From a virus, in the IMG/VR virus record IMGVR_UViG_3300046007_002016, positions 1 to 32,200 of that record: a DNA stretch of 32,200 nt; one strand, 5' to 3'. Below, one piece after another: positions 11,174 through 32,200 of the stretch. How positions within the stretch are numbered: the first letter of the stretch is position 1; each line of letters starts with the position of its first letter. The notes below the pieces were generated by a model. The model made no database searches. It was given only the letters and a program-made list of their open reading frames with translations, and was not told the origin of the DNA. The position numbers and the translations under genes were made by a program.

Positions 11174-11362
11174 ATGTACCAACAAGTTTTACAGCCAAAC
11201 GGCCAGTCAGCCACCTGCATAAAACGCATTGCTGACAACGCCTTCATCCCCTTTGACCCCGCCAACACATGCTACCAAGCATATTTAAAATGGGTCAGTG
11301 AAGGGAACTCTCCGTTGCCAGCAGACGAGCCGATCACTCAGAATGAGCAACCACCAGCTTAA
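11174..11362 (+). CDS. Small fibre-companion protein, C-terminus duplicated downstream
   Basis: 62 residues. MYQQVLQPNGQSATCIKRI, then DNAFIPFDPANTCYQAYLKW and SEGNSPLPAD form a small protein type that I recall following fibre genes in several phages, possibly an assembly helper. Ribosome binding site AAGGA just before ATG 11174. Its 3' end overlaps the homing endonuclease gene by 20 bases. The segment YLKWVSEGNSPLPAD (11282-11326) reappears as YLKWLAEGNTPLPAD at the end of that endonuclease, 12 of 15 residues identical. This suggests the insertion happened in or beside this gene. Confidence 0.72.
   Translation: MYQQVLQPNGQSATCIKRIADNAFIPFDPANTCYQAYLKWVSEGNSPLPADEPITQNEQPPA
11282..11326 (+). 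repeat. First copy of duplicated gene end
   Basis: A 45-base segment encoding YLKWVSEGNSPLPAD. Its partner is at 11964-12008, and I count 29 of 45 bases identical. The changes are mostly at third codon positions, so the duplication is old or came from a diverged relative. Confidence 0.75.
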
Positions 11363-12023
11363 TCGCTACAAAAAGTTTATTGATGCGTTGAGAAATCAGC
11401 GCATTGATGGCTATTTTGAAAAACACCACATCTTGCCAAGAAGCATGGGTGGTAGCGATGATGCGTCCAATATTATCTGTCTGACATTGCGACAACACTA
11501 CATTGCTCATTGGATGCTTTGGAAAGTGTACGGCGGCAAAATGGCGGTTGCTTTTGACTACATGAACGGCATCAAGAAGTATGGCTACCGCCTGACAGGT
11601 AGGACGATAAAGCTGCTTAGTGAAGATGTGTCAAAGCGTAGAAGTGAACGCACTGTTTCCGCTGAAACACGCGAAAAGCAACGCCAAGCAAAACTCGGTC
11701 GCAAACTAACACCCGAGCATATTGAGAAGGTTCGTCTTACGGTGCTTGGTCGTAAAATGGGTCCAGAGTTTGCCGCTAAAGTTTCTGAAGCAAAGCGGGG
11801 TCGCAGCAATGGTCGCCTTGGATGCTCAATGTCTGAGCAAACTAAGCAGCGTATTGGTGATGCCCAACGAGGTGAACTTAACCACATGACGGGCCGTAAA
11901 CACAGCTCAGAAACCAGAGAGAAAATGAGAATGGCACACATGAAACGAAACAAACCCGCCGAGTACCTGAAATGGCTGGCCGAGGGCAACACGCCACTGC
12001 CTGCGGACGCACAACCTGAGTAA
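11343..12023 (+). CDS. HNH homing endonuclease with NUMOD3 repeats and a captured C-terminus
   Basis: About 226 residues from ATG 11343; a GTG at 11298 is possible, and neither has a clear ribosome binding site. The HNH motif is plain near the N-terminus: KHHILPRSMGGSDDASNI then ICLTLRQHYIAHWML, giving the paired His, the Asn and the distal His. The middle and C-terminal part carries repeated NUMOD3-type DNA-binding motifs: SAETREKQRQAKLGRKLT, EHIEKVRLTVLGRKM and SSETREKMRMAHMK. Such proteins cut a target lacking the gene and spread by repair. The last 22 residues are not nuclease but a copy of the end of the upstream small protein. It is inserted between the adhesin and envelope blocks. Confidence 0.88.
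   Translation: MSNHQLNRYKKFIDALRNQRIDGYFEKHHILPRSMGGSDDASNIICLTLRQHYIAHWMLWKVYGGKMAVAFDYMNGIKKYGYRLTGRTIKLLSEDVSKRRSERTVSAETREKQRQAKLGRKLTPEHIEKVRLTVLGRKMGPEFAAKVSEAKRGRSNGRLGCSMSEQTKQRIGDAQRGELNHMTGRKHSSETREKMRMAHMKRNKPAEYLKWLAEGNTPLPADAQPE
11964..12008 (+). repeat. Second copy of duplicated gene end, inside the endonuclease gene
   Basis: It encodes YLKWLAEGNTPLPAD in frame with the endonuclease and is paired with 11282-11326. This is probably the displaced original 3' end of the small fibre-companion gene. Confidence 0.75.
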
Positions 12024-16618: not shown

Positions 16619-17278
16619 ATGCCTCAACAGTTTACGAACAACGCTCGGGCGCTGCTCACGGCTAGTATCGGAACTACCGATACCTCAATAGTAATTGAGT
16701 CAGACAAGGCTTACCTGTTCCCAGTAGCAAATACTGGTACCGGCTCTGTGCCTGCTGCTACCGATTGGTTTAAAGTTACACTCCAAAACTCAGCTGGTGA
16801 TGTTGAGATCGTGTATGTGCGGACACGCCCCTCCGGGTCTAGCGTTTTTAGCAACGTGATACGAGGCCAAGAGGGTACTACTGCGTTGGCTTTCAGCGCT
16901 GGTACTGTGGTTGGCTTGCGTATCACAGCCGCTGATATTCAGAGTGCGCAAAACACTGTCGGTAGCACAGGGGTTACAGGCTCTTTGATTACCCCGGCAG
17001 GCACCGGTGCCCAGCGCGATGCTTCACCTCTGCCCGGGTACTTCCGGTTTAACACGGACACCGACAGCTGGGAAGGCTATGACGGCACTGTGTGGAAGGC
17101 TGTTGGCGGCGGTGCCACAGGTGGCGGTGCGGATGAAGTATTTGTTGAAAACAGCCAAAGTGTCACAGTGGGCTATATCATTCCGGCAACACGCAACGCA
17201 TCTTCTGTAGGCCCGATCACAGTTGAATCTGGAATTGCGGTCACAGTTTCTGACGGTTCACGGTGGGTTGTTCTATAA
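16619..17278 (+). CDS. Tail fibre/tail protein with shared C-terminal module
   Basis: 219 residues. The N-terminal domain (TNNARALLTASIGTTDTSIV and EIVYVRTRPSGSSVFSNVIR, then GQEGTTALAFSAG) is a common phage tail domain. The C-terminal part has YFRFNTDTDSWEGYDGTVWK and then IIPATRNASSVGPITVESG, ending VTVSDGSRWVVL. This end is related to that of the fibre at 7507-8328. It is the first gene after the 16563 promoter, with AAGGAG six bases before the ATG. It may cap or decorate the tail nozzle encoded next. Its exact place in the virion is unknown. Confidence 0.7.
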   Translation: MPQQFTNNARALLTASIGTTDTSIVIESDKAYLFPVANTGTGSVPAATDWFKVTLQNSAGDVEIVYVRTRPSGSSVFSNVIRGQEGTTALAFSAGTVVGLRITAADIQSAQNTVGSTGVTGSLITPAGTGAQRDASPLPGYFRFNTDTDSWEGYDGTVWKAVGGGATGGGADEVFVENSQSVTVGYIIPATRNASSVGPITVESGIAVTVSDGSRWVVL

Positions 17279-17288
17279 GGCTACGACC

Positions 17289-19298
17289 ATGACAGCAGTA
17301 AACATCAAGGCATTTCGCGGTCAAATTCCGCGAATCAGCAATCGCCTGCTGCAGCCCAACCAAGCCGTACGAGCTCTGAACTGCAAGATCACATCTGGCC
17401 GACTAGACCCAATTGCCGGGCCAAAATTCGTAGCGGATGCTTCAGTAGAGGTTAATACGATGTACCGCTACCGGGCGTTTGTAAGCGGCGACTACGTAGA
17501 CACTTGGCTGACATGGGAAGAAATCGTTAACGTGGTGTTATCTCCAAACGCCAACGACCCAGACGGACGTTTTTACTTTTCAAGCGACTCGTTTGAGCCG
17601 CGCATGTCAACCTACACACTGGCTGTTAACTCTCTTCCATACCCAACTGCGTGGTACTCGCTTGGCACTGCCGCTCCTACAGTGGCTCCTACAGTGGCTC
17701 ACACTGGCGGAACGGGCGCTACAGAGTCTCGCTCCTACGTTTACACCTATGTCACGACATATGGTGAGGAGTCTCCTCCGTCCCCGCCATCAGCGCTATA
17801 CACGGCGGCTGTCAACGCTACATGGAACCTGACAGGGCTGCAGACTGCCCCACTTAACTCAGGCACCATTTCTGCAGCATCGACCATCAGCGCCGGTGTA
17901 GTTCGCGTTACGCTCAACAGCGTATTTGGCATCGCTCAGTACGACACCCTGACTTTTTCCGGTGTCGTCGGCATGGTTGCGCTCAATGGTTCATTCCGTG
18001 TTCAGTCAGTTGATACCGTCAACAATCGCGTCACTGTGTCGCTCTCAACAGCTCAGACATACACTTCTGGCGGCGCGTGGGCCCGCAACGCTCCGTTCAA
18101 CACGACTGGCATGGTCAAGCGCATTTACCGCACGGTAGGCACCGGCGGCGTGTTTCTGTATGTAGGTGAAGTGCCTGTAGCCACAACGACTTTCGACGAC
18201 ACGGTAGTCGCCGCTGACTTAGGCGAGGAACTGCCTACCGCAGATTCTTCGCTGCCACCCAAAAACTTGACTGGTCTTATAAGCCTACCCAACGGTTGTC
18301 TGGCTGGCATAGCAGGTAACGAGCTGTGTTTCAGTGACCCATACATGCCGTATTCATGGCCCATTCGGAACCGTTACTCGTTTTCTGGTGTGGGCGTTGC
18401 TGCCGTCGCTACGAGCAACTCGGTCATAGTATTGACGCAAACATTCCCCATCCTGTTTACAGGTTCCGATCCTGAAGCAATGTCGCCAACAACAATGGAG
18501 ACTTACGCACCGTGTGTGGCCAGTAGGGGTGTTGTCGATATTGGAGGCGAAGTTATCTACCCAAGTTTCGACGGGTTGTGGGTGGTTTCGCCCGGTGCGG
18601 TCAACCGCATAACGAAGAATTTGTACCGTGAAGAAGAATGGTCGGCCATAAACCCACAGTCTTTTATAGCTGCGTTCCACGATGGGCAGTACTACGCCAG
18701 ATACTCGCTAGCGACTGCCAGCAGAATACTGGTGGTCGACCTGAATGAGGCAGACAGCGTTGTAGAAATTGATCAAGATGTAACTACCCTATACCGTAAT
18801 GAGTATGACGGCAAGCTGTATATAGCCATTGGGTCTCAACTGTACGAGTGGGATTCTGATGCGGGCCGCTCATATACTGGCGATTGGCTTAGCGGCACTA
18901 TGCAGATGCCGTCACTGGTAAATCTTTCCGTTGCGCAAGTTCACGCTGACTTCTCGGGTTCGGCCCAGACGAACACCGTTCAGCTAGCAGAAAATACGGC
19001 CCTGATTGCACTTGGACCAGATGCGGTTGCTGGACACTTAAACGGCCATGAACTTTTAAGCTTCGAGGTCAATGGAAGCTACCTGCTCCCAGTTACTACT
19101 TCTAACCCTAAGAGAGTACAGTTTACGTTGTATGTAAATGAAGTCCCGGTGTTTACAAAGAACGTCACGTCTTCCACGCCGTTTAGGCTGCCTGCAGGAT
19201 TTCTTAGCGAGGTCTACAACATAGGCATTAGCGCTAATACTAGGACTTATTCTGTTGCGGTGGCTACCTCCGTTGCAGAACTTTCGCAGGCATCCTGA
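17289..19298 (+). CDS. Tail nozzle / tubular-protein-B-like structural protein
   Basis: 669 residues. I chose ATG 17289 (AAGG eight bases upstream) over an upstream in-frame start that would overlap the fibre gene by 56 bases. The N-terminus (IKAFRGQIPRISNRLLQPNQ, then AVRALNCKITSGRLDP) and the central GLISLPNGCLAGIAGNELCF with a following FDGLWVVSPG resemble podovirus nozzle proteins with beta-propeller-like folds. A fibronectin-like stretch (YVYTYVTTYGEESPPSPPS) sits at about 153-175. It probably forms the distal tail tube under the adaptors. It overlaps the next gene by one base (TGATG). The name rests on motif memory and order. Confidence 0.68.
   Translation: MTAVNIKAFRGQIPRISNRLLQPNQAVRALNCKITSGRLDPIAGPKFVADASVEVNTMYRYRAFVSGDYVDTWLTWEEIVNVVLSPNANDPDGRFYFSSDSFEPRMSTYTLAVNSLPYPTAWYSLGTAAPTVAPTVAHTGGTGATESRSYVYTYVTTYGEESPPSPPSALYTAAVNATWNLTGLQTAPLNSGTISAASTISAGVVRVTLNSVFGIAQYDTLTFSGVVGMVALNGSFRVQSVDTVNNRVTVSLSTAQTYTSGGAWARNAPFNTTGMVKRIYRTVGTGGVFLYVGEVPVATTTFDDTVVAADLGEELPTADSSLPPKNLTGLISLPNGCLAGIAGNELCFSDPYMPYSWPIRNRYSFSGVGVAAVATSNSVIVLTQTFPILFTGSDPEAMSPTTMETYAPCVASRGVVDIGGEVIYPSFDGLWVVSPGAVNRITKNLYREEEWSAINPQSFIAAFHDGQYYARYSLATASRILVVDLNEADSVVEIDQDVTTLYRNEYDGKLYIAIGSQLYEWDSDAGRSYTGDWLSGTMQMPSLVNLSVAQVHADFSGSAQTNTVQLAENTALIALGPDAVAGHLNGHELLSFEVNGSYLLPVTTSNPKRVQFTLYVNEVPVFTKNVTSSTPFRLPAGFLSEVYNIGISANTRTYSVAVATSVAELSQAS
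17673..17696 (+). repeat. Two tandem copies of a 12-base unit
   Basis: GCTCCTACAGTG occurs twice back to back, coding APTVAPTV in the nozzle-like protein, with a third degenerate copy after it. This is a likely slippage duplication in a linker. Confidence 0.8.
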
Positions 19299-19492
19299 TG
19301 ACCAAAGCCGCTATCCCATCTGTCATGACTGGCAAGCCCGACTTGGATCGGGCGCTGTCGTCTATCAAACAGAACTTGGACGCCATTACGGCCCAATCCA
19401 AGAACGTAAACCGATTTCAGCCGCTACCCGCCACCGCCACGTTGGCCGAAGTGATCGGACGACTCAACGCCGTAGTGGAAAGATTGCAGTAG
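19298..19492 (+). CDS. Small helical protein, unknown function
   Basis: 64 residues starting in the stop codon of the nozzle-like gene (TGATG). It reads as a short N-terminal segment, a helix DLDRALSSIKQNLDAITAQS, then RFQPLPATATLAEVIGRLNA and a short helix. I recall similar small proteins following tail genes but no function. The overlap with the gene before it indicates translational coupling. It may be a tail completion or assembly factor. Confidence 0.72.
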   Translation: MTKAAIPSVMTGKPDLDRALSSIKQNLDAITAQSKNVNRFQPLPATATLAEVIGRLNAVVERLQ

Positions 19493-19498
19493 ATCGGC

Positions 19499-19504
19499 CA
19501 TAAT
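19499..19504 (+). promoter_or_regulatory. Candidate -10 element before a leaderless start
   Basis: CATAAT ends 7 bases before ATG 19512. TGGAAA at 19476-19481 is a weak -35 with a 17-base spacer. No Shine-Dalgarno sequence precedes the ATG. Confidence 0.4.
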
Positions 19505-19511
19505 ACGCACT

Positions 19512-20390
19512 ATGGAACTTGAACTCGTAGAGCAGTCGGCAGTGGACTCCTGCTACCCTGATGGGGTGCCGGAAGGATTCCCCATTGATTTGTTCGAGCC
19601 GATCAACGGCCCAGAGCTGGTCATCCGCGAGGCCAAGCTGCGCAACAAGATCGACGCCCTGCAGGCGCTTATGCTGCAGCAGCCACAGGCTGATACGCCC
19701 GTGCGCAACGTGTTTTCTGGCGGCGTCTACGCCCGCGAGCTGTTCATCCCCAAGGGGACTTTGCTGGTGGGCAAGCTGCACATGACTGAGCACTTGAACA
19801 TCTGCATGCAGGGCGACCTCACATTCATGACGGCAGACGGACCTAAGCGTATCAAGGCTCCGGCCATGTTTTCGTCCCCCGCTGGCACGAAGAAGTTAGC
19901 GTACGCCAACGAAGATTCGATCTGGATCAATGTGCACCCTGACTTGGGCCTTGAGCCTGACCAGATCATTGATGCCATCACAGTGAACACATTCGCTGAA
20001 TACGAGAAACTTGTTGCCCACGCCAGCTTCAAAGACACCATTGCTGCGTTCGGGCTGGCTGAAGATACTGTACGTACCGTGTCCGTCGACGAGTCTACGC
20101 TGGACAGAACTCCACTAGACGGCGTTGAGGTGCGCGAGTCCGCTATCGAAGGGTCAGGCTTGTTTTCCTTGCGCGGGTTCAGCGCAGGTGAGAAAATCTG
20201 CGTCGCGCTTGTGGACGGCAAACGGTCTCTGGCTGGGAGGTATTCCAACCATTCGCCCACGCCCAACTGCAATTTTTCTGTCGTCGATGGTGCACTGTGG
20301 CTTGTGGCAGGTCGCGAGATCGAGCCTGACGAGGAACTTACCACCAATTACGGTGATACATTGACCCTTATCCAAGGGTTGGGGAGCTGA
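19512..20390 (+). CDS. Cupin-like/SET-domain fusion protein
   Basis: 292 residues, two domains. Residues about 62-145 form a cupin-like beta barrel (FSGGVYARELFIPKGTLLVG, then KLHMTEHLNICMQGDLTFMT and PAMFSSPAGTKKLAY), with His90, His94 and His142 as possible metal ligands. Residues about 205-285 are a SET-like domain: SAIEGSGLFSLRGFSAGEKI, then GRYSNHSPTPNC (Asn246-His247-Ser248 motif) and DEELTTNYGD. SET domains are usually protein-lysine methyltransferases using S-adenosylmethionine. Pre- and post-SET cysteines are missing. It has no Shine-Dalgarno site but a -10-like element. The gene sits between tail and ejection-protein genes, so its target may be a virion or host protein; this is inference. 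Confidence 0.75.
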   Translation: MELELVEQSAVDSCYPDGVPEGFPIDLFEPINGPELVIREAKLRNKIDALQALMLQQPQADTPVRNVFSGGVYARELFIPKGTLLVGKLHMTEHLNICMQGDLTFMTADGPKRIKAPAMFSSPAGTKKLAYANEDSIWINVHPDLGLEPDQIIDAITVNTFAEYEKLVAHASFKDTIAAFGLAEDTVRTVSVDESTLDRTPLDGVEVRESAIEGSGLFSLRGFSAGEKICVALVDGKRSLAGRYSNHSPTPNCNFSVVDGALWLVAGREIEPDEELTTNYGDTLTLIQGLGS

Positions 20391-20392
20391 TT

Positions 20393-21334
20393 ATGAGTGC
20401 TGTTGTTGGTGCAATTGCTGTCGGTGGCGGTCTTGCTATGGGACTTGGCGGAGCTGCGCTTGTCGGCGCTGGCGTGGCTGGCGTGGCTGGCGGCTTAATG
20501 ATGCAAGAGGGGCGCGAAAACGCCGCTGAAGCTCAGGCTGCACAAGAACGCGCCGCTGCTGGTTTGGCCTCGTCGTCTGACTACGCTGCTAAGTTGTCGT
20601 ACAACTTGGGCCAAGACCAACTGGCTTTCGAGAAACAGCAGTACGCTGAGATGAAGCCGTTGGCGGAACGTGTTTCTGCATCACAGGTTGCGGCGCAAGA
20701 CGAGCAAATGCGGCAAGGGCGCGACTACTACAACTACCAGACTAATACGTTCCGCCCGCTTGAGCAGGGTCTGGTTTCACAAGTCCAACAGTTTGACACT
20801 GAGGCTTACCGTGAGCAGCTGGCCTCGCAGGCTGCGGCAGACGTTTCGCGTGCATTCGGTGTGGCGCAGGGCATGACCACTCGTGATCAAGCTCGTCGTG
20901 GTGTTGGCCCCGGCTCAGGCAACGCCTTGGCCATGAACAACCAGAACGCTTTGGCGCTGGCTTCTGCCCGCGCAGGCGCGGCTACAGGTGCACGCAATCA
21001 GGCTGAGCAGCTCGGCTACGCCCGCAAGCTGGATGTCACAGGTCTTGGCCGTGGTCTGGCTGGAGCGTCTACTGCAGCGTACGGTGCAGCAACAACCGCT
21101 GGCACCGCTGGCTTGAACTCTGCCATGGCACCGGGTGCTCAGTACTCCGCAGGCGCAAACCGCGCAGCTGGCGTTATGACCACTGGCGCAGGACAACAAA
21201 TTTCTGGGTACAGCTCACTGTACGGCGGCGCGACAAGCCTTGCCTCCGCTGCAATGCAGGAACAAGCAGGCATGACTGGCTCTCTGCTCGGCATGGCCGG
21301 AACTTTGGGCGCTGGCTACCTCGGCAGAAAATAA
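20393..21334 (+). CDS. Internal virion / ejection protein 1
   Basis: 313 residues. The N-terminus (about 1-37) is a Gly/Ala/Val-rich hydrophobic segment able to insert in a membrane. The rest is Ala/Gln-rich helix (about 40-170), then a Gly/Ala/Thr-rich, low-complexity half. It is the first of three consecutive genes of rising size, the order found for T7 gp14-gp15-gp16, which leave the capsid and form a channel for DNA across the envelope. The similarity is in order, size trend and composition, not in clear sequence. GGGGAG precedes the start, two bases after the SET gene. Confidence 0.65.
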   Translation: MSAVVGAIAVGGGLAMGLGGAALVGAGVAGVAGGLMMQEGRENAAEAQAAQERAAAGLASSSDYAAKLSYNLGQDQLAFEKQQYAEMKPLAERVSASQVAAQDEQMRQGRDYYNYQTNTFRPLEQGLVSQVQQFDTEAYREQLASQAAADVSRAFGVAQGMTTRDQARRGVGPGSGNALAMNNQNALALASARAGAATGARNQAEQLGYARKLDVTGLGRGLAGASTAAYGAATTAGTAGLNSAMAPGAQYSAGANRAAGVMTTGAGQQISGYSSLYGGATSLASAAMQEQAGMTGSLLGMAGTLGAGYLGRK

Positions 21335-23128: not shown

Positions 23129-26100
23129 ATGGAATACTTCAAAGGTATCGGCTCACTGTCCTCAGTTGATTTTGGTGGAGCCTTTGGTGAAACCCAAGAA
23201 AAACCAACTCAGGAGCGCCCAAACGCCCCCGGACTTATGTCCGATGTGCGCCGAGCCACAGGACAGTTTGTCGCTGGTGCCGGTTCTACGCTGCGTGACC
23301 TTGGCGCTGAGGACGTGGGCGGTGCAGTCGAGCAGTACGGTGCTGATGTTGTGCGTCGTAACCCCAGCGAGATTCAGTCGTTTGACGATGTTCTGTCTCG
23401 CCCCTTCACAACTGCACGTGAGGCCGTTGGTGAGGTAGCCCCGCAGGTAGGCTTGGCCTTGGGTGGGCAACTAGGTGGACGATTGGTTGGCGGTGTTCTT
23501 GGTTTGCCGTTTGGCCCAGCAGGTGTTGCAGTCGGACAACAGGTCGGCGGTTTTGTTGGCGGTCTACTCCCTACTGCTGTACAGACATACGGCGGCATTC
23601 GCACGGGACAGCGTGAACAAGGCATTGACGAGCGTGGTCGGGCAGTGGCAGTTACCATCCCTGCTGCCCTGTTAGAGCGCTTTGGCGGCGCAGAGCGTGT
23701 AGCCCTGCGTGTGGCTGGCGAAGGCACTGAGTTCCTCGCCCGTGCAGCTGGAACAGGCTTTGCGAAGAATGCTGGCAAACAATTCGTCCGTGGTGGTTTG
23801 GAAGAAGCTATTACTGAGTTACCACAGACTGGCTTGGAGCGCTACGGTGTTACTGGCCAAACAGCTGACCTTACAAGCCCAGAGGCTATGAATGAGTACG
23901 GCGTCGCAGGTGCCAAAGCCTTCTTGGGCGGCGGCTCTATCCGCGCTGGATTGTCCACACTTGCCGGTACGCGCCCAGCAGAGCCCACAGTCACCATCCA
24001 ACCAGATGGCACAATCACTTCGGACCAGCCCGCTACAGGCGCAGAAGGCGAAACCGACCTGACTCGTGGCAGCAATGTCTTGATGACTCCAGAGCAAGCA
24101 GCGCAGCGTCTGCAGCAGATTCAGGATCGTCGTCCTGCGGCATTGAGTGACGAAGCGTTTGAAGCGCCCCCCGCTCAACGCGGTTTGTTTGATACTCGTG
24201 GCGGCGAAGCTCCGCCAGCCCCCGTTGCCGGTGAGCAGATTGACCTGTTTGGCGGCGGTGGCGTGGCCCCCGCGCCTTTTGTCGACGAGCGACAAGGCGA
24301 TCTGTTCGCCCCACAGGAACCTACGTTTCAGACTCGCATCACAGCAGAGCTTCTGGATGGCCTCGGCATGCCTCGGCAGTCGCCAATGTACCGCCAGCTG
24401 CTCGGCAAAGACATGGCTGATCCTGAGCAGCAGCCACAAATCGCTGCGTTGTTTGATCGCGTGCGGACAGACGGCACAATCTCTGAACGTACAAAGGCTG
24501 GCGTCGAAGGTCTTGCAATGCAGGCGTTCGGTGGCATGGCCCAGCAGCAAGAGATGTTCGGCCCACGCGGCGGTGCGTACCCACAGGGTCGCCCAAGCAC
24601 ACAACAGAATGCCCCCGGCCCCATCGAGAACCTGTTGCCTACAGCCCCCTTGGGCGCTGCTGCGGCTGCTCCAGTCGAAGCCCCCGTAGTTGAGACCCCT
24701 GCACCAGTTGCGCCTGCTGCGCAAGCTCCGGCCCAACCTGTGGCGTTGCCTACTGTGCCTGCTGGCGTTACCCTGACAGCGGATGAAAACCGCTTGGTCA
24801 AGCAAGCCAACGCCATCTTTGGCCTTGCTGAGACTGACGCAGAACGCGCAAGCGTAGCTGCCATGGTCCAGCGCACAATCGAACGCGCAGCACAGCGCAG
24901 TGGCACCCCCGTTACTCCTGTCGGCGCACCAACTGCAGTTGCCGCCGCTTTGCCTGCTGCACAACCTGCAGCAGGCGTTTCTTCCACCCCTGTAACTACC
25001 GGAGCACCCAGTGGCACTCAAGCCCCTAAAACCGTCGAAGCAAAAACGCAAGGACAAAAAGCAACCACCTCCACCCCAGCTGTAAGCAAACCAGCAACAT
25101 ATGTGGCTGCTGGCTCAGGTGACGCAAGTCTTGAGCTCAAGCAAGGTGATAAGCGTTTTGTGCTTACGAACGTCGGCGGCAAGCCCCAACTTGTCGTGCG
25201 AGACCCAAATAGCGCGAGTGGCCCATCGGTCTTCTACGCAGAAGGCAAGCAGTTCGACAGCAGAGGCAACGTGTTTTCCGCCGCCGAGTTAGCGGCTATG
25301 TACCCTGAGCTCCCAAAGCCTGTTATTGCTGCCATGCAGAGTTGGTTAGCATCTGGCGGGACAGACACACAAACCCTTGGTGCTAAGGTAGCCGACGCAT
25401 GGAACGCTGCGACTGGCACTAAGGCATCCACTTCCGCCGTCAGAATTGCCAGCACCCAAACAGCTGAGCAACAAGCTGCAGACGAACTTGGCCTGACCCA
25501 AGCCCTGCAGGTAGCGAACCGCGTAAAGACTACTGGCAACCCTCTGCAAGCCAGCGTTCAAGGCGCAGGAAAAGTAGCTGTACCGGGCAAGGCTTCATTA
25601 AGCGTCAACTCTTTGCGCGACATCCGCGATGCTTTGTTGAACCCATCTGCAACTGTGGAAGGCATTGGTGCCAAAGAGCAGGCCATCGCTGACGCAGTCC
25701 GCGCATTTGCCAAGGCCTACTACAAGCTCAGCAACGCTGGCGGCAACATGCTGCGCGGTATCCCGTCTGAGCGCGGTACCCGTGCTGAAAACGGCGAGAT
25801 GGTCTACAAACCCACAAAATTCTCCAAGCAAACCCCTGCTGAGCAACGTGGGCAGATCAAGGCCAAGACTGGTATTCGTGTTGAAAACACGATGAAGCTC
25901 TTAGAGGAAACACGCGCTGCACTGGCTGCGCTCGGCACTGCAGTCAACGGGAACGCTAAAGACGTCGAAGCTATCGTCAAGCTGACCAAAGACATGGTGC
26001 AACAAAAGCTGCACACACAAGTCAATGACACTGGCATCAACGAAGACTTTGGCCAAGACACAGAACAAGACAGCGTCGATGCCGCTTTCGGCAAACTCGA

Positions 26101-29100
26101 CACCATGTTGTCTCAAGGTTGGAACGCGGCAAAAGCCAACATGTTTCAAGGCCGTTCTGACGCCATGTTCGTTCGCCAGACAGCGATCCGCGAGTCTAAA
26201 GAAGCTACCGCCGCTGGTGAAAGCCAGACTCCACTGGAGAAAGCCGCCAAAGGCTACGCCGTGTTCGGCAAAGGTGAATCGTCTGATGGCATTTTGGGGG
26301 TGATGAATTACATCCAGACGCACGGCACACCGTTTGAGCGCACCATTGCTAAGGCTGTGTTCGAGTCCATGGCATACCAAGAGGCACCTAAGCTGGTGTT
26401 CATCACCGAAGGTAATCCACGGTTCGACCCCAAGAAGAACACGATCTACATCCAACGAGATGCGTCCGCTGCCGTAACTCTGCACGAAGCCCTGCACTCT
26501 GCGTTGCAGTGGTATGTGTATGGTAATCCAGACGCTCCAGCAGTTCGAGCGCTGAAGGCTTCGCTCAAGCAAGTCGTCAACTTTAAAGGCCCCCTTGGTG
26601 CAGATGCCAAGCGCGTGCAAGACCTACTCAAAGCTCTGATGAAGGACAAGAAAGAGCTTGACGCTGTCCTCGAACTGGTGTCCTATGGGAATACCCTTAA
26701 CGACTTCCGACGCGCACTGGAAGCAATGGACAGCACCGAAGCTCCGAAGTCATTCTTTGACGCAGCCAACAACGTGTGGCAGTCTATCCTGACAGCCGTG
26801 CAGAAGATGCTCGGCGTCAAGCCTTCCGTGGCTGCTGACGTTATCGCAAACACGTTCAAGCTGCTTGAGGCTGCTGGCCAAAAAGGGCAGAAGAAGGGTA
26901 AAGCCACAGGTAGTGTGCTCGAAGCCGCTATCCAAGCTACTGACCCAACGACTGCGCCTACGATCGACGCTGCTGCACAGCAGGTTGGCTTTGCTGACGC
27001 CACCGCGTTTGCCAATGGCCCCGGTAAGTTCAAGACACCTACACAGCTTGTGTTCGAGATTGTTGGCCTTGGCCGCGTAAATGGTAAAGACCTGCCGCTC
27101 ACAGCAAGCATTGCAAAGAACGGTGCGAAGCTGGCGAACTACATCCGTAAGGAAGTGCCGACGCTTGAGCGCGTCATCATGCAGTTCAACTCAAACTTCA
27201 GCAATTCGCCTGCTACCGTGGCAGCGATCGACAACTACAAGTTTTTGGCCCAGACTGGCCACTTGCAGATGGAGAAGATTGCAACCACCATCGCTGCCCG
27301 CCCTGAGCTGCGTGAGCCCTTCTTGGACTACATGGATGGCAATACCAAAGCGTTTGCTGGTATTCAGAACGCTTCCGGGTTCAAGGCTATCGCCGACAAC
27401 CTCAAAGGCTTGATGAAGCAGTACATCAGCACCCTGCCTGCAAACTCCAAGGAGCGCCGCGCTTTCGAGAGCATGCCGTTCACGCAGTACATCATCAGCC
27501 CCACCAGCATCAGTCAGGTCGCAGGCTCTACGCTCAGCGCTGGCAAGATCGCCAGCATGATCGGCACGAAGAAGCAGACACACCAGTCGCTTGATGAGTT
27601 CAAGCAGTTCCTCGACATGACAGACGGCATTGTCGATCAAGATCAGCCGCTGTACCAGATATTTGAAGACAAACTTGGCAAGAAGGGTTTGCCTGCTGGG
27701 TTTATTTCTAAGGCTCAGTACGACAAGACTGGCGTGACACCTTCTGGTACAGCGGTTGACGCCAAGCGCGTTTGGAAGTTTTCCAAGTACGACACCGACA
27801 AGGGCAACTTCGAGTTCTCGTCCAGCATCACTACCCGTGACGCGCTCAAAAACCTGAAGAGCGAAGACCTCGCACTGGCTTTGGTAAACACCACGGCTGC
27901 ACTGTCTCACGCGCATGCTGCTACAACGTACTTCGGCAACCTTGCTTCGATTGGCCGTGAGAGCGGCAAGCCCACGGCTGAAGCTGTTGCGTTCGACAGT
28001 GTTGACGAGATCAACGAAGTGTTCGGCGATCGTAACCTCGAACTCAACAACGTGCTGCAAGTTTCCGACGAGGCTTCTAAATCGCAGTCGCTGCGCTGGC
28101 AAACACAGCGCACTGGCACATGGGTGCAGTTGCCACAAGGTACAACCTACGGCGCTCTTGCTGGGAAGATCATCCCCGGCCCCGTGTGGAACGCCATGAT
28201 CGACATGCACGATCGTTCGCCAGCGGTTAACTTCAAGTCGTTCAACGAACTTATGGCCTTCTTCAAGCAGTCTAAGACTGTCCTGAACCCCGGCACACAC
28301 GTCACCAACGTGCTGTCGAACGTCGCACTGCTGATTCTGCACGGCATCCGCCTCGGCACGCTCAAACGCGCTGCAGGCATGTACGCCAAGTTCGAGCGCA
28401 ACCCAGACTCTATGAACGACGCCGATCGCGCACTGATGCAGGCGTTCTTTAACTCCGGTGCTGTGCTTGGTCAGTTCACAAACTCTGAGCTCAAGGGCAG
28501 CGTCTACGACCGCCTGTCCGAGTCCATCACCCCCACCAGCGATCAGTCGTACATCAAGCGCATGACCTCGATGGCAGCGTTTGAACAGACCAAAGCCAAG
28601 TTGGCAGGTTGGAAGGACAACGCTGTAGAGATATACGCAGCAGAAGATAACGTGTTCCGCTTCGCTGCGTTCTTGGAGACAGCTGGCAATGTGCAGTTGC
28701 GCGACGGTTCCAAACAACTCGACGCCAAACAGCTTGAAGAAGTTGGTCTGGCCGCACGCAAGATGTTCTTGGACTATGACATCGACGCACGTGCAATCCG
28801 CGCAGCCCGTCAAACATTCCTGCCGTTCGTATCGTGGTCATACGCCATCATGCCGGTGCTTGGTCGCATCGCAGTTACCAAGCCTTGGGCCATTGTCAAC
28901 ATGATGGCATCGGTCATGCTGATGCAGGCTGCGCTGGGCGGAGAAGAAGACGATGAGCTGCGCAAAAAAGGCCCGGACTACCTGCGTGAGCGTTCGCTGT
29001 TCGGCCTCGGTCCATACATGCACATGCGGATTCCGTTTGTTGGCGATGACCAGAACCCGACATACCTCAACGTCGGCAAGTACATCCCGTTCTTGTCGTT

Positions 29101-29629
29101 GTTCCAGCCTGCGCCGGGTGAGTCTCCGTTTGCAGGGCAGTCGTGGTTGCCCGGTTTCGCTACGCCCGGTGGCCCACTTGTCACGCTGATCTCTGCCATG
29201 AACGGCTACGACCCATTCACAGGCAAGCCAATGCACGCCCCCACAGACACAGAGTGGGACAAACTTGTCACGACAGCCAAGTTCTCCTATGACACAATGG
29301 CACCGCCAGTTGTGACAACCAAGTTCTGGGATCAAATAGGCGATCTGAAGGATGGTGCCAAAGGCCCCACAGGCATCGAGAAAAGCTCTATGTTCTTGGC
29401 CCGTACGCTGGGTGGCATTGGGCTGTATCAGTTCAACGTCGACGAAGCTGCGTTCTACAAGAGCAAAGAGCTCAAAGAGATCAAGAAGGACTACAAGGCT
29501 GCAATGACCAAGGCCAAGCGCGAGGAGTACCGCAAGGGCTACCCCGACTACGAGGCACTGGACAGAGAGCTCGACGACCTGCGAGATCGTATGCAAGAAG
29601 CATTGGCGAAAGCCAGAGGAGAAGAGTAA
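23129..29629 (+). CDS. Giant internal virion / ejection protein with a HEALH zincin motif
   Basis: 2166 residues, about a fifth of the window. N-terminal part: Gly-rich hydrophobic tract (about 106-155) resembling a glycine zipper, followed by Pro/Ala/Gln-rich low-complexity linkers (about 290-640). A zincin-like domain is centred on HEALH at residues 1119-1123 (Glu1120 catalytic), after FITEGNPRFDPKKNTIYIQR, with Glu1182 in ELVSYGN a possible third zinc ligand. Then come long mixed helical regions. The C-terminal part has segments such as FLPFVSWSYAIMPVLGRIAV and a Lys/Glu-rich coiled coil ending the protein. It is the third and largest of the trio, and may cut peptidoglycan or proteins on entry. 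AAGGAA lies before ATG 23129. Confidence 0.75.
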   Translation: MEYFKGIGSLSSVDFGGAFGETQEKPTQERPNAPGLMSDVRRATGQFVAGAGSTLRDLGAEDVGGAVEQYGADVVRRNPSEIQSFDDVLSRPFTTAREAVGEVAPQVGLALGGQLGGRLVGGVLGLPFGPAGVAVGQQVGGFVGGLLPTAVQTYGGIRTGQREQGIDERGRAVAVTIPAALLERFGGAERVALRVAGEGTEFLARAAGTGFAKNAGKQFVRGGLEEAITELPQTGLERYGVTGQTADLTSPEAMNEYGVAGAKAFLGGGSIRAGLSTLAGTRPAEPTVTIQPDGTITSDQPATGAEGETDLTRGSNVLMTPEQAAQRLQQIQDRRPAALSDEAFEAPPAQRGLFDTRGGEAPPAPVAGEQIDLFGGGGVAPAPFVDERQGDLFAPQEPTFQTRITAELLDGLGMPRQSPMYRQLLGKDMADPEQQPQIAALFDRVRTDGTISERTKAGVEGLAMQAFGGMAQQQEMFGPRGGAYPQGRPSTQQNAPGPIENLLPTAPLGAAAAAPVEAPVVETPAPVAPAAQAPAQPVALPTVPAGVTLTADENRLVKQANAIFGLAETDAERASVAAMVQRTIERAAQRSGTPVTPVGAPTAVAAALPAAQPAAGVSSTPVTTGAPSGTQAPKTVEAKTQGQKATTSTPAVSKPATYVAAGSGDASLELKQGDKRFVLTNVGGKPQLVVRDPNSASGPSVFYAEGKQFDSRGNVFSAAELAAMYPELPKPVIAAMQSWLASGGTDTQTLGAKVADAWNAATGTKASTSAVRIASTQTAEQQAADELGLTQALQVANRVKTTGNPLQASVQGAGKVAVPGKASLSVNSLRDIRDALLNPSATVEGIGAKEQAIADAVRAFAKAYYKLSNAGGNMLRGIPSERGTRAENGEMVYKPTKFSKQTPAEQRGQIKAKTGIRVENTMKLLEETRAALAALGTAVNGNAKDVEAIVKLTKDMVQQKLHTQVNDTGINEDFGQDTEQDSVDAAFGKLDTMLSQGWNAAKANMFQGRSDAMFVRQTAIRESKEATAAGESQTPLEKAAKGYAVFGKGESSDGILGVMNYIQTHGTPFERTIAKAVFESMAYQEAPKLVFITEGNPRFDPKKNTIYIQRDASAAVTLHEALHSALQWYVYGNPDAPAVRALKASLKQVVNFKGPLGADAKRVQDLLKALMKDKKELDAVLELVSYGNTLNDFRRALEAMDSTEAPKSFFDAANNVWQSILTAVQKMLGVKPSVAADVIANTFKLLEAAGQKGQKKGKATGSVLEAAIQATDPTTAPTIDAAAQQVGFADATAFANGPGKFKTPTQLVFEIVGLGRVNGKDLPLTASIAKNGAKLANYIRKEVPTLERVIMQFNSNFSNSPATVAAIDNYKFLAQTGHLQMEKIATTIAARPELREPFLDYMDGNTKAFAGIQNASGFKAIADNLKGLMKQYISTLPANSKERRAFESMPFTQYIISPTSISQVAGSTLSAGKIASMIGTKKQTHQSLDEFKQFLDMTDGIVDQDQPLYQIFEDKLGKKGLPAGFISKAQYDKTGVTPSGTAVDAKRVWKFSKYDTDKGNFEFSSSITTRDALKNLKSEDLALALVNTTAALSHAHAATTYFGNLASIGRESGKPTAEAVAFDSVDEINEVFGDRNLELNNVLQVSDEASKSQSLRWQTQRTGTWVQLPQGTTYGALAGKIIPGPVWNAMIDMHDRSPAVNFKSFNELMAFFKQSKTVLNPGTHVTNVLSNVALLILHGIRLGTLKRAAGMYAKFERNPDSMNDADRALMQAFFNSGAVLGQFTNSELKGSVYDRLSESITPTSDQSYIKRMTSMAAFEQTKAKLAGWKDNAVEIYAAEDNVFRFAAFLETAGNVQLRDGSKQLDAKQLEEVGLAARKMFLDYDIDARAIRAARQTFLPFVSWSYAIMPVLGRIAVTKPWAIVNMMASVMLMQAALGGEEDDELRKKGPDYLRERSLFGLGPYMHMRIPFVGDDQNPTYLNVGKYIPFLSLFQPAPGESPFAGQSWLPGFATPGGPLVTLISAMNGYDPFTGKPMHAPTDTEWDKLVTTAKFSYDTMAPPVVTTKFWDQIGDLKDGAKGPTGIEKSSMFLARTLGGIGLYQFNVDEAAFYKSKELKEIKKDYKAAMTKAKREEYRKGYPDYEALDRELDDLRDRMQEALAKARGEE

Positions 29630-30723: not shown

Positions 30724-30908
30724 GCGTTTCCCCTGTTTGAAATCCATGCCCAGTAGTGAGCGTCGTGCCTGTACCCGTGACATGCGTGCAATGCCTGTCC
30801 ATATTCGTTATGACCCGGAGTCCCCGCGTTTGCAGCGAGGGCTTTGATTCTGGCAATGCTAACTTCGTAGGGCTCGTCTAGTTCCCAAGGAGTGCCATAC
30901 ACGTTCAT
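30720..30908 (-). CDS. Small protein in replication operon, unknown function
   Basis: 62 residues. ATG at 30908 overlaps the stop of the ATPase gene (ATGA), with GGGAG upstream, and its own stop overlaps the MazG-like start the same way. It reads MNVYGTPWELDEPYEVSIAR then IKALAANAGTPGHNEYGQAL and HACHGYRHDAHYWAW. Several His and Cys are present, but I see no known motif. The double overlap makes coding near certain and ties its expression to both neighbours. Confidence 0.8.
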   Translation of the reverse strand: MNVYGTPWELDEPYEVSIARIKALAANAGTPGHNEYGQALHACHGYRHDAHYWAWISNRGNA

Positions 30909-32200
30909 GCTGCAGCTCCCAAAACAGCCAGTGCAATCTTACTCTGTGCGCGGGCTGTGGTGCCCGTCAGGCTGTCCACGAACCGTGGGTGGTTCAGGTT
31001 CACGATCATGCACTGCATCTGGCCCGGGGCGTGCTTGGGGCAGCCCTTGAACATCGTGACGCGGTCACGGCGGCGCAGCAATGCGTTCTCGTTCTCCAAC
31101 TCCCGCTCGATGCGGTCCAAGCCATCACGCTTGATCTTGAGCCATGAGCGCAGCTTCTCAGCGTTGATCGCCACTTGGCTACCCGGCATGATGGGGTTCT
31201 TGTCGTCGTAGACGATCTTGACCCGCGCCACGGCGCGTTCTGGTGCTGGCAGTGTGACCTGCTCAACACCTGATCCATACTTCTCTTTGCACTCGACCAG
31301 CTGGTCGTTGTGCTCTGCAAGGAACTGGCCCACGATGTCGAACACATCGGTCTTGTGATCAATGGTGAACTGGCGTGTCTTCTTGATGTGCGAGATCAGG
31401 TGGTCAATGGTGCCCTGCACATCGAACGGGAACAGGCCCAAGGCTTGGCCAATCCGTCCCATACCCCATGCAGCAATGATGGCCGTACGATAGAAGCGCT
31501 CCTGCGGCTCGAACACAAAGTTGAACGTCTTCATGAACGATGCCTCGGCCCACTTCCACACAGCCTCTGGACCGCCCTTATCGATCACCACCTGCACCAG
31601 CTCTGGGAAAGCCCAGCCGTTGTTCTTGGCCATGATGTCGAAGAACTCATAGCCATCGCTCTTGCCGTCTTCACGGGTCTCGATGAACGTGCGGTCATGT
31701 TGTGGCAACTCCAAGCATCGGGCTTTGAGCGGCTCGTTGCCAGCCTGTGCACCCTCGAACTTCTGCCACAGCGAGATGTTGGTTGTCATCAGTGTGGGGC
31801 CATCCCACGACGCAGGGTCTCGCAAATCGCGATCTTTGGTCATGGACACCTTCTCGCGGCCCATGCTCAGCTGATACGTCATGTCAGCGATGTCTTTGTC
31901 GTCAGCTGCAGTCATCTCGTCGATGCAGCATGGCAAGCTGTTGAGCACACCGCGCTGCTTGTACAGGGCGTTGGCCGTGTCCTTCTGGCTCAGGAACAGT
32001 TGCTTGGGCGTGCCGATGAGGCTATTGGCGGCAATCAGTGACAGTGTCTTGCCCGTAGTCGTCTCTGTTGAGTAGATGGACACCACGACGGTGCCGTTAC
32101 CAGCCACAGGCCCGAGGATGCCAGTCAATGCCAGCAGCACAGCGGAGCGTATCGTCTCTGAACCCGGACGGTTGAGCATGTCCATGCCGCGAATCCACTC
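30905..32200 (-). CDS. DUF927-like P-loop ATPase/helicase (5' end outside window)
   Basis: At least 431 residues. The frame is open to the window edge, so the N-terminal part is missing; the first in-window ATG is at 32185. Numbered from it, YSTETTTGKT (38-47) is a Walker A-like loop, LPCCIDE (84-90) a Walker B with Asp89-Glu90, and TLMTTN (131-136) a sensor-type strand. LNRPGSETIRSAVLLALTGI before the loop is typical of DUF927 proteins, which relate to primase-helicases. The C-terminal half has long helices and a Lys/Arg-rich region with a CPKHAPGQMQC pair of Cys. A replicative helicase or helicase-primase part is likely. Confidence 0.75.
   Translation of the reverse strand, partial: EWIRGMDMLNRPGSETIRSAVLLALTGILGPVAGNGTVVVSIYSTETTTGKTLSLIAANSLIGTPKQLFLSQKDTANALYKQRGVLNSLPCCIDEMTAADDKDIADMTYQLSMGREKVSMTKDRDLRDPASWDGPTLMTTNISLWQKFEGAQAGNEPLKARCLELPQHDRTFIETREDGKSDGYEFFDIMAKNNGWAFPELVQVVIDKGGPEAVWKWAEASFMKTFNFVFEPQERFYRTAIIAAWGMGRIGQALGLFPFDVQGTIDHLISHIKKTRQFTIDHKTDVFDIVGQFLAEHNDQLVECKEKYGSGVEQVTLPAPERAVARVKIVYDDKNPIMPGSQVAINAEKLRSWLKIKRDGLDRIERELENENALLRRRDRVTMFKGCPKHAPGQMQCMIVNLNHPRFVDSLTGTTARAQSKIALAVLGAAA

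Follow-up and report, generated by a model that had tools for sequence, protein, structure and literature searches.

The window analysed here, the whole of a 32,200-base virus record from IMG/VR that derives from an uncultured short-tailed phage, carries at 19512–20390 an open reading frame (ORF) of 292 amino acids opening with an ATG at 19512. Its product joins a cupin barrel to a SET domain through a helical linker, and both its own neighbours and the gene order of its relatives support a setting within a virion gene block (Table 1). A preliminary description of this DNA had proposed such a cupin-like and SET-like fusion in that setting, and had placed the motifs NHSPTPN and EELTTNYGD in the SET-like part; we located them at residues 246–252 and 274–282 respectively, and the three histidines to which it drew attention in the first domain (H90, H94 and H142) are present.

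Table 1. Features of the cupin–SET locus and its immediate neighbours (window coordinates).
Feature	Position	Strand	Evidence
Upstream neighbour, phrog_511 'internal virion protein', TTG start uncertain	17223..19298	+	PHROGs
64-aa ORF without significant family	19298..19492	+	ORF list, Pfam, PHROGs
Cupin–linker–SET gene (292 aa)	19512..20390	+	ORF translation, Pfam, PHROGs, AlphaFold model, VIA-align
Cupin barrel, residues 60–145, metal ligand positions not conserved	19689..19946	+	HP0902 Z 9.1; residue counts
Helical linker, residues 149–191	19956..20084	+	AlphaFold model
SET domain, residues 203–283, without SET-I	20118..20360	+	Pfam, VIA-align, profile alignment, family counts
NHSPTPN motif, residues 246–252 (N246 and H247 are cofactor-contact positions)	20247..20267	+	Translation, family counts
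Y280 codon, SET catalytic tyrosine position	20349..20351	+	Profile alignment, family counts
Downstream neighbour, phrog_8003 'virion structural protein'	20393..21334	+	PHROGs

Domain architecture

The Pfam SET profile (PF00856) matched with an E value of 5.2e-10 and 40.1 bits, against a curated cut-off of 22.4, over profile positions 46–105 of 105, while PHROG 34170 covered cupin and SET together (E 1.1e-46; residues 41–285 on profile positions 14–280 of 296). Two further families, PHROG 12032 ('short tail fiber protein', E 2.8e-37) and PHROG 24280 ('tail fiber adhesin', E 8.4e-32), matched the cupin part only. An AlphaFold model computed from 40 aligned fused proteins of diverse sequence reached a mean pLDDT of 89.2 and comprises a helix (residues 34–54), a beta barrel (64–143), further helices (149–191) and the SET region (205–289). 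When its parts were compared with known structures by VIA-align, the SET part aligned with EZH2 in PRC2 (Z 11.3, 95 residues aligned, 2.6 Å), MLL1 (Z 10.7, 78 aligned, 37% identity) and vSET (Z 10.2 over 75 residues), and the cupin part with HP0902 (86 aligned, 2.5 Å). The protein of the cultured phage PH1 (IMG/VR copy L020), which is 35% identical, was modelled as well; it has a pLDDT of 93.0 and the same two folds, with Z scores of up to 10.7 (SET) and 9.5 (cupin). The fusion is thus borne out by profiles, by two models and by structure comparison, and a prediction lacking the SET fold, which had been named in advance as grounds for abandoning the idea, was not what we obtained. Two cupin queries retrieved no solved structure related by sequence at E values up to 10; NCBIfam gave no match for three fused proteins, and PADLOC none among the four window proteins tried.

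Start signals and gene packing

Pairing of the 19512 start with the anti-Shine–Dalgarno sequence is at best −1.7 kcal/mol, against −4.8 to −10.2 for 16 of the 18 other scored starts, in agreement with the ribosome binding site previously noted as absent. The two genes directly upstream are also weak in this respect (−2.4 and −2.6), so that 17223, 19298 and 19512 are the starts of three consecutive genes with very weak Shine–Dalgarno sequences; the TTG at 17223 may be misplaced. A weak −10 element had been described as well, and such a site does exist (19476–19504, 9 of 12), but promoter-like sites are no more frequent than expected by chance, with three found between 16500 and 21500 against 2.8 in shuffled sequences. 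A private promoter for the cupin–SET gene was rejected for want of any excess over shuffles, and expression at a time different from that of its neighbours is likewise unsupported, the gene being packed into a late block: the ATG of the next gene (20393) lies two bases past its stop codon, with GGGGAG in and next to its last codons. Among 209 cupin ORFs looked at, all 67 that end in CQ contain ATGTCA in their last codons, and in L100 (loci collected from databases bear L numbers here) the next gene is annotated as starting there, a point checked only in such examples. The 14 CQ-ending examples inspected, all of them cupin-only, have a purine run resembling a Shine–Dalgarno sequence before ATGTCA. 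The ATGTCA in the codons of all 67 led us to reject the C-terminal 'KGxxCQ' as a feature of the protein.

Gene neighbourhood

The upstream neighbour belongs to the same profile group as the protein at the gp10 position in PH1 and is unmatched by the gp10 profiles of phages P26218 and BA3. The downstream neighbour is of ejection type by position and by weak profile links, and is unmatched by the ejection profiles of PH1, P26218 and BA3; the BA3 member of that group is annotated 'DNA ejection'. The two ejection profile groups share nine ORFs, and the window's downstream neighbour is therefore a distant ejection member at best. The links of the window's two neighbours with the gp10 and ejection families found in its relatives are only weak.

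Across the family the arrangement is consistent. Among the matches listed, an ejection-type gene lies directly 3' in 123 of the 136 fused and 54 of the 63 cupin-only loci with room (at least 600 bases downstream, the split locus L119 being counted as cupin-only), so that the fusion beside ejection genes, which the preliminary description had proposed seeking in phage databases, was indeed found. These comprise 118 fused and 52 cupin-only loci with a PH1/P26218/BA3-type profile, together with five fused (the window and four close copies) and two cupin-only loci (L255 and L256) that match the window's own neighbour alone; in the remaining 13 and nine of the listed loci the downstream gene matches neither group. 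Upstream, a gp10-type protein occurs within 3 kb in 69 of 76 fused and 44 of 51 cupin-only loci with room among the matches listed. It is of P26218/BA3 type in 60 fused and 44 cupin-only loci and of window/PH1 type in nine and none respectively; the former type is annotated as gp10-like or head closure and shares one ORF with the latter group.

The cupin of PHROG 12032 and 24280 (PHA00672) is homologous to that of the window and has no SET, its fibre name being an annotation only. In BA3, VvAW1 and 234P9 it is likewise encoded between a gp10-type and an ejection gene, and in VPMS1 it precedes a DNA injection gene; both homology (PHROG 12032, E 2.8e-37) and gene slot thus identify the window cupin with this podovirus protein. 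In Sphaerotilus phage vB_SnaP-R1 and Variovorax phage VAC_51 the gene after the cupin belongs to the T7 gp14 family, and the cupin gene lies between tail tubular protein B and the gp14-family gene in the former and between a tail protein and the gp14-family gene in the latter. This recalls the slot of T7 gp13 between gp12 and gp14, an order present in phiPsa17, the likeness being by position only. The cupin gene is placed differently in Alteromonas phage R8W, where it stands between the RNA polymerase and, one small ORF further on, the connector.

Elsewhere in the window, an ORF of 2166 amino acids (23129–29629) has no convincing match (best PHROG E 0.019, best Pfam E 0.068); at a similar place BA3 has a giant ORF with LPD38 and methyltransferase domains. 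An ORF resembling a homing endonuclease (11298–12023; phrog_655, 1.2e-39) lies between a tail-fibre gene and the lysis genes, and a DUF927 match (9.6e-12) is found on the minus strand near the window's end (30905–32185).

Distribution of the fusion and of its SET-less relatives

We collected at least 143 distinct fused ORFs, mostly from IMG/VR and including some near copies, as well as the cultured phages PH1 and P26218. In a phage collection the whole protein matched 58 records, eight of them through the SET (PH1 twice, P26218 twice, two Manatee Spring records of 38,548 bases, ct1fd225 and zth2-2) and the rest through the cupin with little or nothing beyond; a SET-only query of 50,697 phage records returned the same eight. 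An ORF resembling a GNAT acetyltransferase (Pfam 4.2e-6) occurs in zth2-2 about 280 bases past the cupin–SET gene (L010, 7039–7527). In BFVD, A0A6J5PTS6, named 'SET domain containing protein', is a 35% identical match over 125 columns.

Scanning of IMG/VR gave at least 534 relatives among 599 candidate stretches listed, and a SET-only profile scan at least 576 among 600; 80 loci were kept per scan. Of those kept from the first scan 78 are fused and two (L055 and L056) are not, while in the SET-only scan 78 of the 79 new loci among the matches listed encode SET and cupin as a single ORF, and the two are likewise joined in 171 of the 172 SET ORFs collected up to that point. The sole SET without a cupin in its own ORF among these matches is L119, where the two lie in separate frames, a split that by eye looks like frame errors. 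The SET pattern is specific to the fusion's own subfamily, and these figures apply within its reach, with phage SETs of other families lying beyond it. A cupin-pattern scan yielded 20 fused and 60 cupin-only loci; of the latter, four are truncated at contig ends, and in two of these (L249 and L257) the reading frame continues into linker or SET sequence, giving a true split of at least 22 fused and at most 58 cupin-only. Among genome contigs there were six relatives in 28 stretches, four of them fused. The earlier view that SET proteins are rare in phage structural regions does not hold for this fusion, which is common in environmental viral contigs. Its members were already in public databases; what we add is their analysis.

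Conservation of the SET domain

Among the matches listed, N246 is kept in 144 of 144 distinct SET ORFs (different in sequence, near copies staying in the set), H247 in 143, Y280 in 143 (the exception being a gap, in L248), G216 in 144 and G214 in 141, counts that are partly circular because the scan patterns select those stretches, one of the two patterns of the first IMG/VR scan requiring T-x-[DN]-Y and the SET-only scan R-T-x-x-G-R-x-x-N-H. Fair subsets of the matches listed gave the same picture: asparagine and histidine are present in 62 of 62 ORFs from the first scan and the tyrosine in 57 of 57 from the SET-only scan, while 11 new ORFs from the cupin-pattern scan, which involves no selection on SET, have the first two in 11 of 11 and the tyrosine in 10, with a gap in the other. 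Across proteins only about 30% identical, no more than one departure or gap occurs at any of the positions N246, H247, Y280, G216 and E275. The single substitution at 247, by glutamine, occurs in L098, on a metagenome-assembled contig labelled Anaerolineae, and may mark an inactive copy. In a profile alignment the GxG, NHS and tyrosine of the window SET line up with the corresponding motifs of MLL1, positions which we take to contact S-adenosylmethionine (AdoMet) or to catalyse in known SET enzymes.

Median dN/dS was 0.088 for the SET and 0.078 for the cupin, with a highest SET value of 0.35, over 110 usable of 133 close pairs that are not independent of one another. The nearest variants of the window gene differ from it by 32 bases and six changed residues (L005) and by 20 bases and three residues (L006).

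As a SET domain the region thus has a profile score above the cut-off, the fold, and the GxG, NHxxxPN and catalytic tyrosine motifs; what it lacks is the SET-I insert, which is usual in known enzymes and which we did not count as strictly defining the class. This segment helps to form the substrate groove in known SET enzymes. Profile alignment shows some 7 residues at this place, compared with some 42 in MLL1, and the spacing of the region is identical in 137 of the 140 SETs (of 144) that could be measured by pattern. It is the most unusual feature of the fusion and the main ground for doubting activity: without it a lysine channel is not assured, and the groove would have to come from the linker or from a partner. 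If the SET were catalytically dead and had been taken over for a structural or binding role on a tail protein, this would account for the uniform loss of SET-I and for the annotation of cupin relatives as tail fibres. Relics rarely keep all of the five positions named above at about 30% identity, however, and we regard loss of the ancestral activity, raised in the preliminary description, as unlikely in view of N246, H247, Y280 and the purifying selection; an absence of cofactor-contacting residues from all relatives, which would have favoured it, is the reverse of what the 144 ORFs contain. Because the cofactor and catalytic positions are kept and dN/dS is low, the SET is probably active, and fold and residues together make it a predicted AdoMet-dependent protein-lysine methyltransferase, as first supposed.

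The cupin domain

The preliminary description had suggested metal binding by H90, H94 and H142, which the family does not bear out. In 40 diverse fused proteins histidine occurs at position 88 in 24, at 90 in 17, at 94 in 36 and at 142 in 17, and position 128, where the canonical histidine of the second motif would fall, has histidine in one and lysine or arginine in 39; from the cupin motifs (HxH...E/H and the second-motif histidine) we take 88, 90, 94 and 128 to be the canonical ligand positions. The domain therefore has the RmlC-like barrel of a metal-dependent cupin enzyme without its conserved ligand set. Better kept are R75 and G101 (40 of 40 each), W138 (38), E134 (37) and D135 (36), a pattern that fits a structural role. 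The metal site has been lost, neither H90 nor H142 being conserved, and the cupin is probably a scaffold. An active metallo-cupin working alongside the methyltransferase, as a demethylase of JmjC type or as another oxygenase, has the fold and the attraction of two opposed activities to commend it, but with positions 88, 90 and 128 variable or lysine/arginine in these 40 members it is highly improbable, and we discarded both a metal-binding cupin and a demethylase on this evidence.

A second, weakly cupin-like short ORF (23–25 bits) lies about 3 kb upstream of the cupin–SET gene in L004 (1283–1651) and L006 (605–973), which are near-identical carriers; no such ORF was found in the window or in L002, L003 and L005.

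Gain, loss and exchange of the SET module

On a tree of cupins the presence of SET requires at least nine changes, against a mean of 28.0 when labels are shuffled, with none of 500 shuffles as low; four of the nine are forced by starred branches. The tree was made by a quick method from 101 representatives of 199 distinct sequences over 126 columns, leaving out four cut ORFs and L119, and its long branches make the details unsure. One case is the pair L025 (with SET) and L224 (without), in which cupin DNA is 89% identical up to one point, past which the SET module and a short tail differ until about 80% identity resumes in the ejection gene. Their ejection proteins are 78.8% identical, with three private lysines each; lysine differences as a sign of the substrate gave no signal in this one pair. 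Such similarity in spite of gain or loss of the SET tells against the view that the ejection protein must be a substrate.

Nine pairs of fused proteins have cupins 76–88% identical and SETs only 43–50% identical (L027 with L019 and L021, for example), which suggests exchange of one SET for another. Cupin and SET identities nonetheless correlate (r 0.81; none of 500 permutations as high), so that the two domains are as a rule inherited together and only exceptionally exchanged. A late enzyme whose targets are host proteins inside the cell, with its place in the late operon a matter of timing alone and the cupin as a dimerisation part, would agree with the conserved active site and the tight packing into the late block. 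We think it quite unlikely, as the cupin alone is kept at the same place in phages without SET, and the site was therefore not chosen for the SET.

Discussion

Our preferred reading, tentative and given a probability of roughly 0.42, is that the cupin–SET protein is a lysine methyltransferase of the late block, docked by its cupin to the tail or ejection apparatus and methylating virion proteins. Lysine methylation reported for virion proteins of other phages (PMC13288928) speaks for it; against it stand the missing SET-I, the patchy presence of the SET, the weak family ties of the window's two neighbours, the different place of the cupin gene in R8W and the glutamine of L098. The barrel is a conserved podovirus protein, usually encoded directly before the first DNA-ejection gene, and its metal-less form is most likely a docking or assembly part of that apparatus. 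Joined onto it, the SET module would serve as an accessory enzyme, an AdoMet-dependent protein-lysine methyltransferase that is unusually small and lacks SET-I. We infer that the cupin would hold the SET near its substrates, most likely lysines of the ejection, tail or head proteins made next to it, and that methylation would take place in the cell during assembly, where AdoMet is available. The SET is unlikely to methylate envelope proteins from the cell exterior, where AdoMet would not be expected. It can be absent while the ejection protein stays alike, so that methylation may be either an optional refinement or directed at the host.

The main rival to assembly-time methylation is delivery with the ejection proteins. 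A candidate ejected effector of this kind would travel in the particle, enter the cell and methylate host proteins early in infection, by analogy with Alt of T4, which acts early on host proteins with ADP-ribose. The position of the gene directly before the first ejection-type gene, of the T7 gp14 family in vB_SnaP-R1 and VAC_51, is in keeping with this, and an accessory, swappable SET is easier to reconcile with a factor aimed at the host than with an indispensable step of assembly. The giant ORF of BA3 follows the ejection genes and carries LPD38 and methyltransferase domains, a polyvalent-protein pattern, but the window's own 2166-aa ORF has neither, and on balance we consider such delivery doubtful. 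The broader proposition that podoviruses carry a swappable SET lysine methyltransferase on a tail or ejection cupin, associated with the virion, possibly ejected, and minimal in lacking SET-I, seems to us possible at somewhat less than even odds.

Among known proteins, PHROG 34170 is the same cupin and SET protein (PH1 protein, E 2.9e-155); it is annotated 'unknown function', and we found no paper on the family in the literature searched. The best profile (E 1.8e-12) and structure (Z 10.7–11.3) matches to the window SET are those of the MLL/KMT2 and EZH2 enzymes, although the SET-I of MLL1 is absent from it. A small viral SET enzyme is known in vSET (PBCV-1 A612L), a histone H3K27 methyltransferase that is structurally about as close (Z 10.2) and shares the GxG, NHS and tyrosine motifs; it differs in belonging to a virus of a eukaryote, in its chain of 105 residues against 81 in the window SET, and in having no cupin.

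Methyl-lysine on phage proteins, both in cells and in free virions, was newly described in 2026 for Cellulophaga phages that, according to the authors, are not known to encode methyltransferases, although Table 2 of the same source lists phage DNA methylases (PMC13288928). No description of a cupin–SET phage protein was found among the titles and opening lines of abstracts that searches of an incomplete literature collection listed. In its carrier, its place in the genome and its minimal form, the protein is an unusual setting for a SET methyltransferase, and the widespread family is a candidate for phages bringing their own protein methyltransferase, within the structural block. If this is true, it would define a minimal form of the SET domain without SET-I, and since some members are in culture (PH1 and P26218) and nature provides pairs that differ in having the SET, who methylates and why become directly testable.
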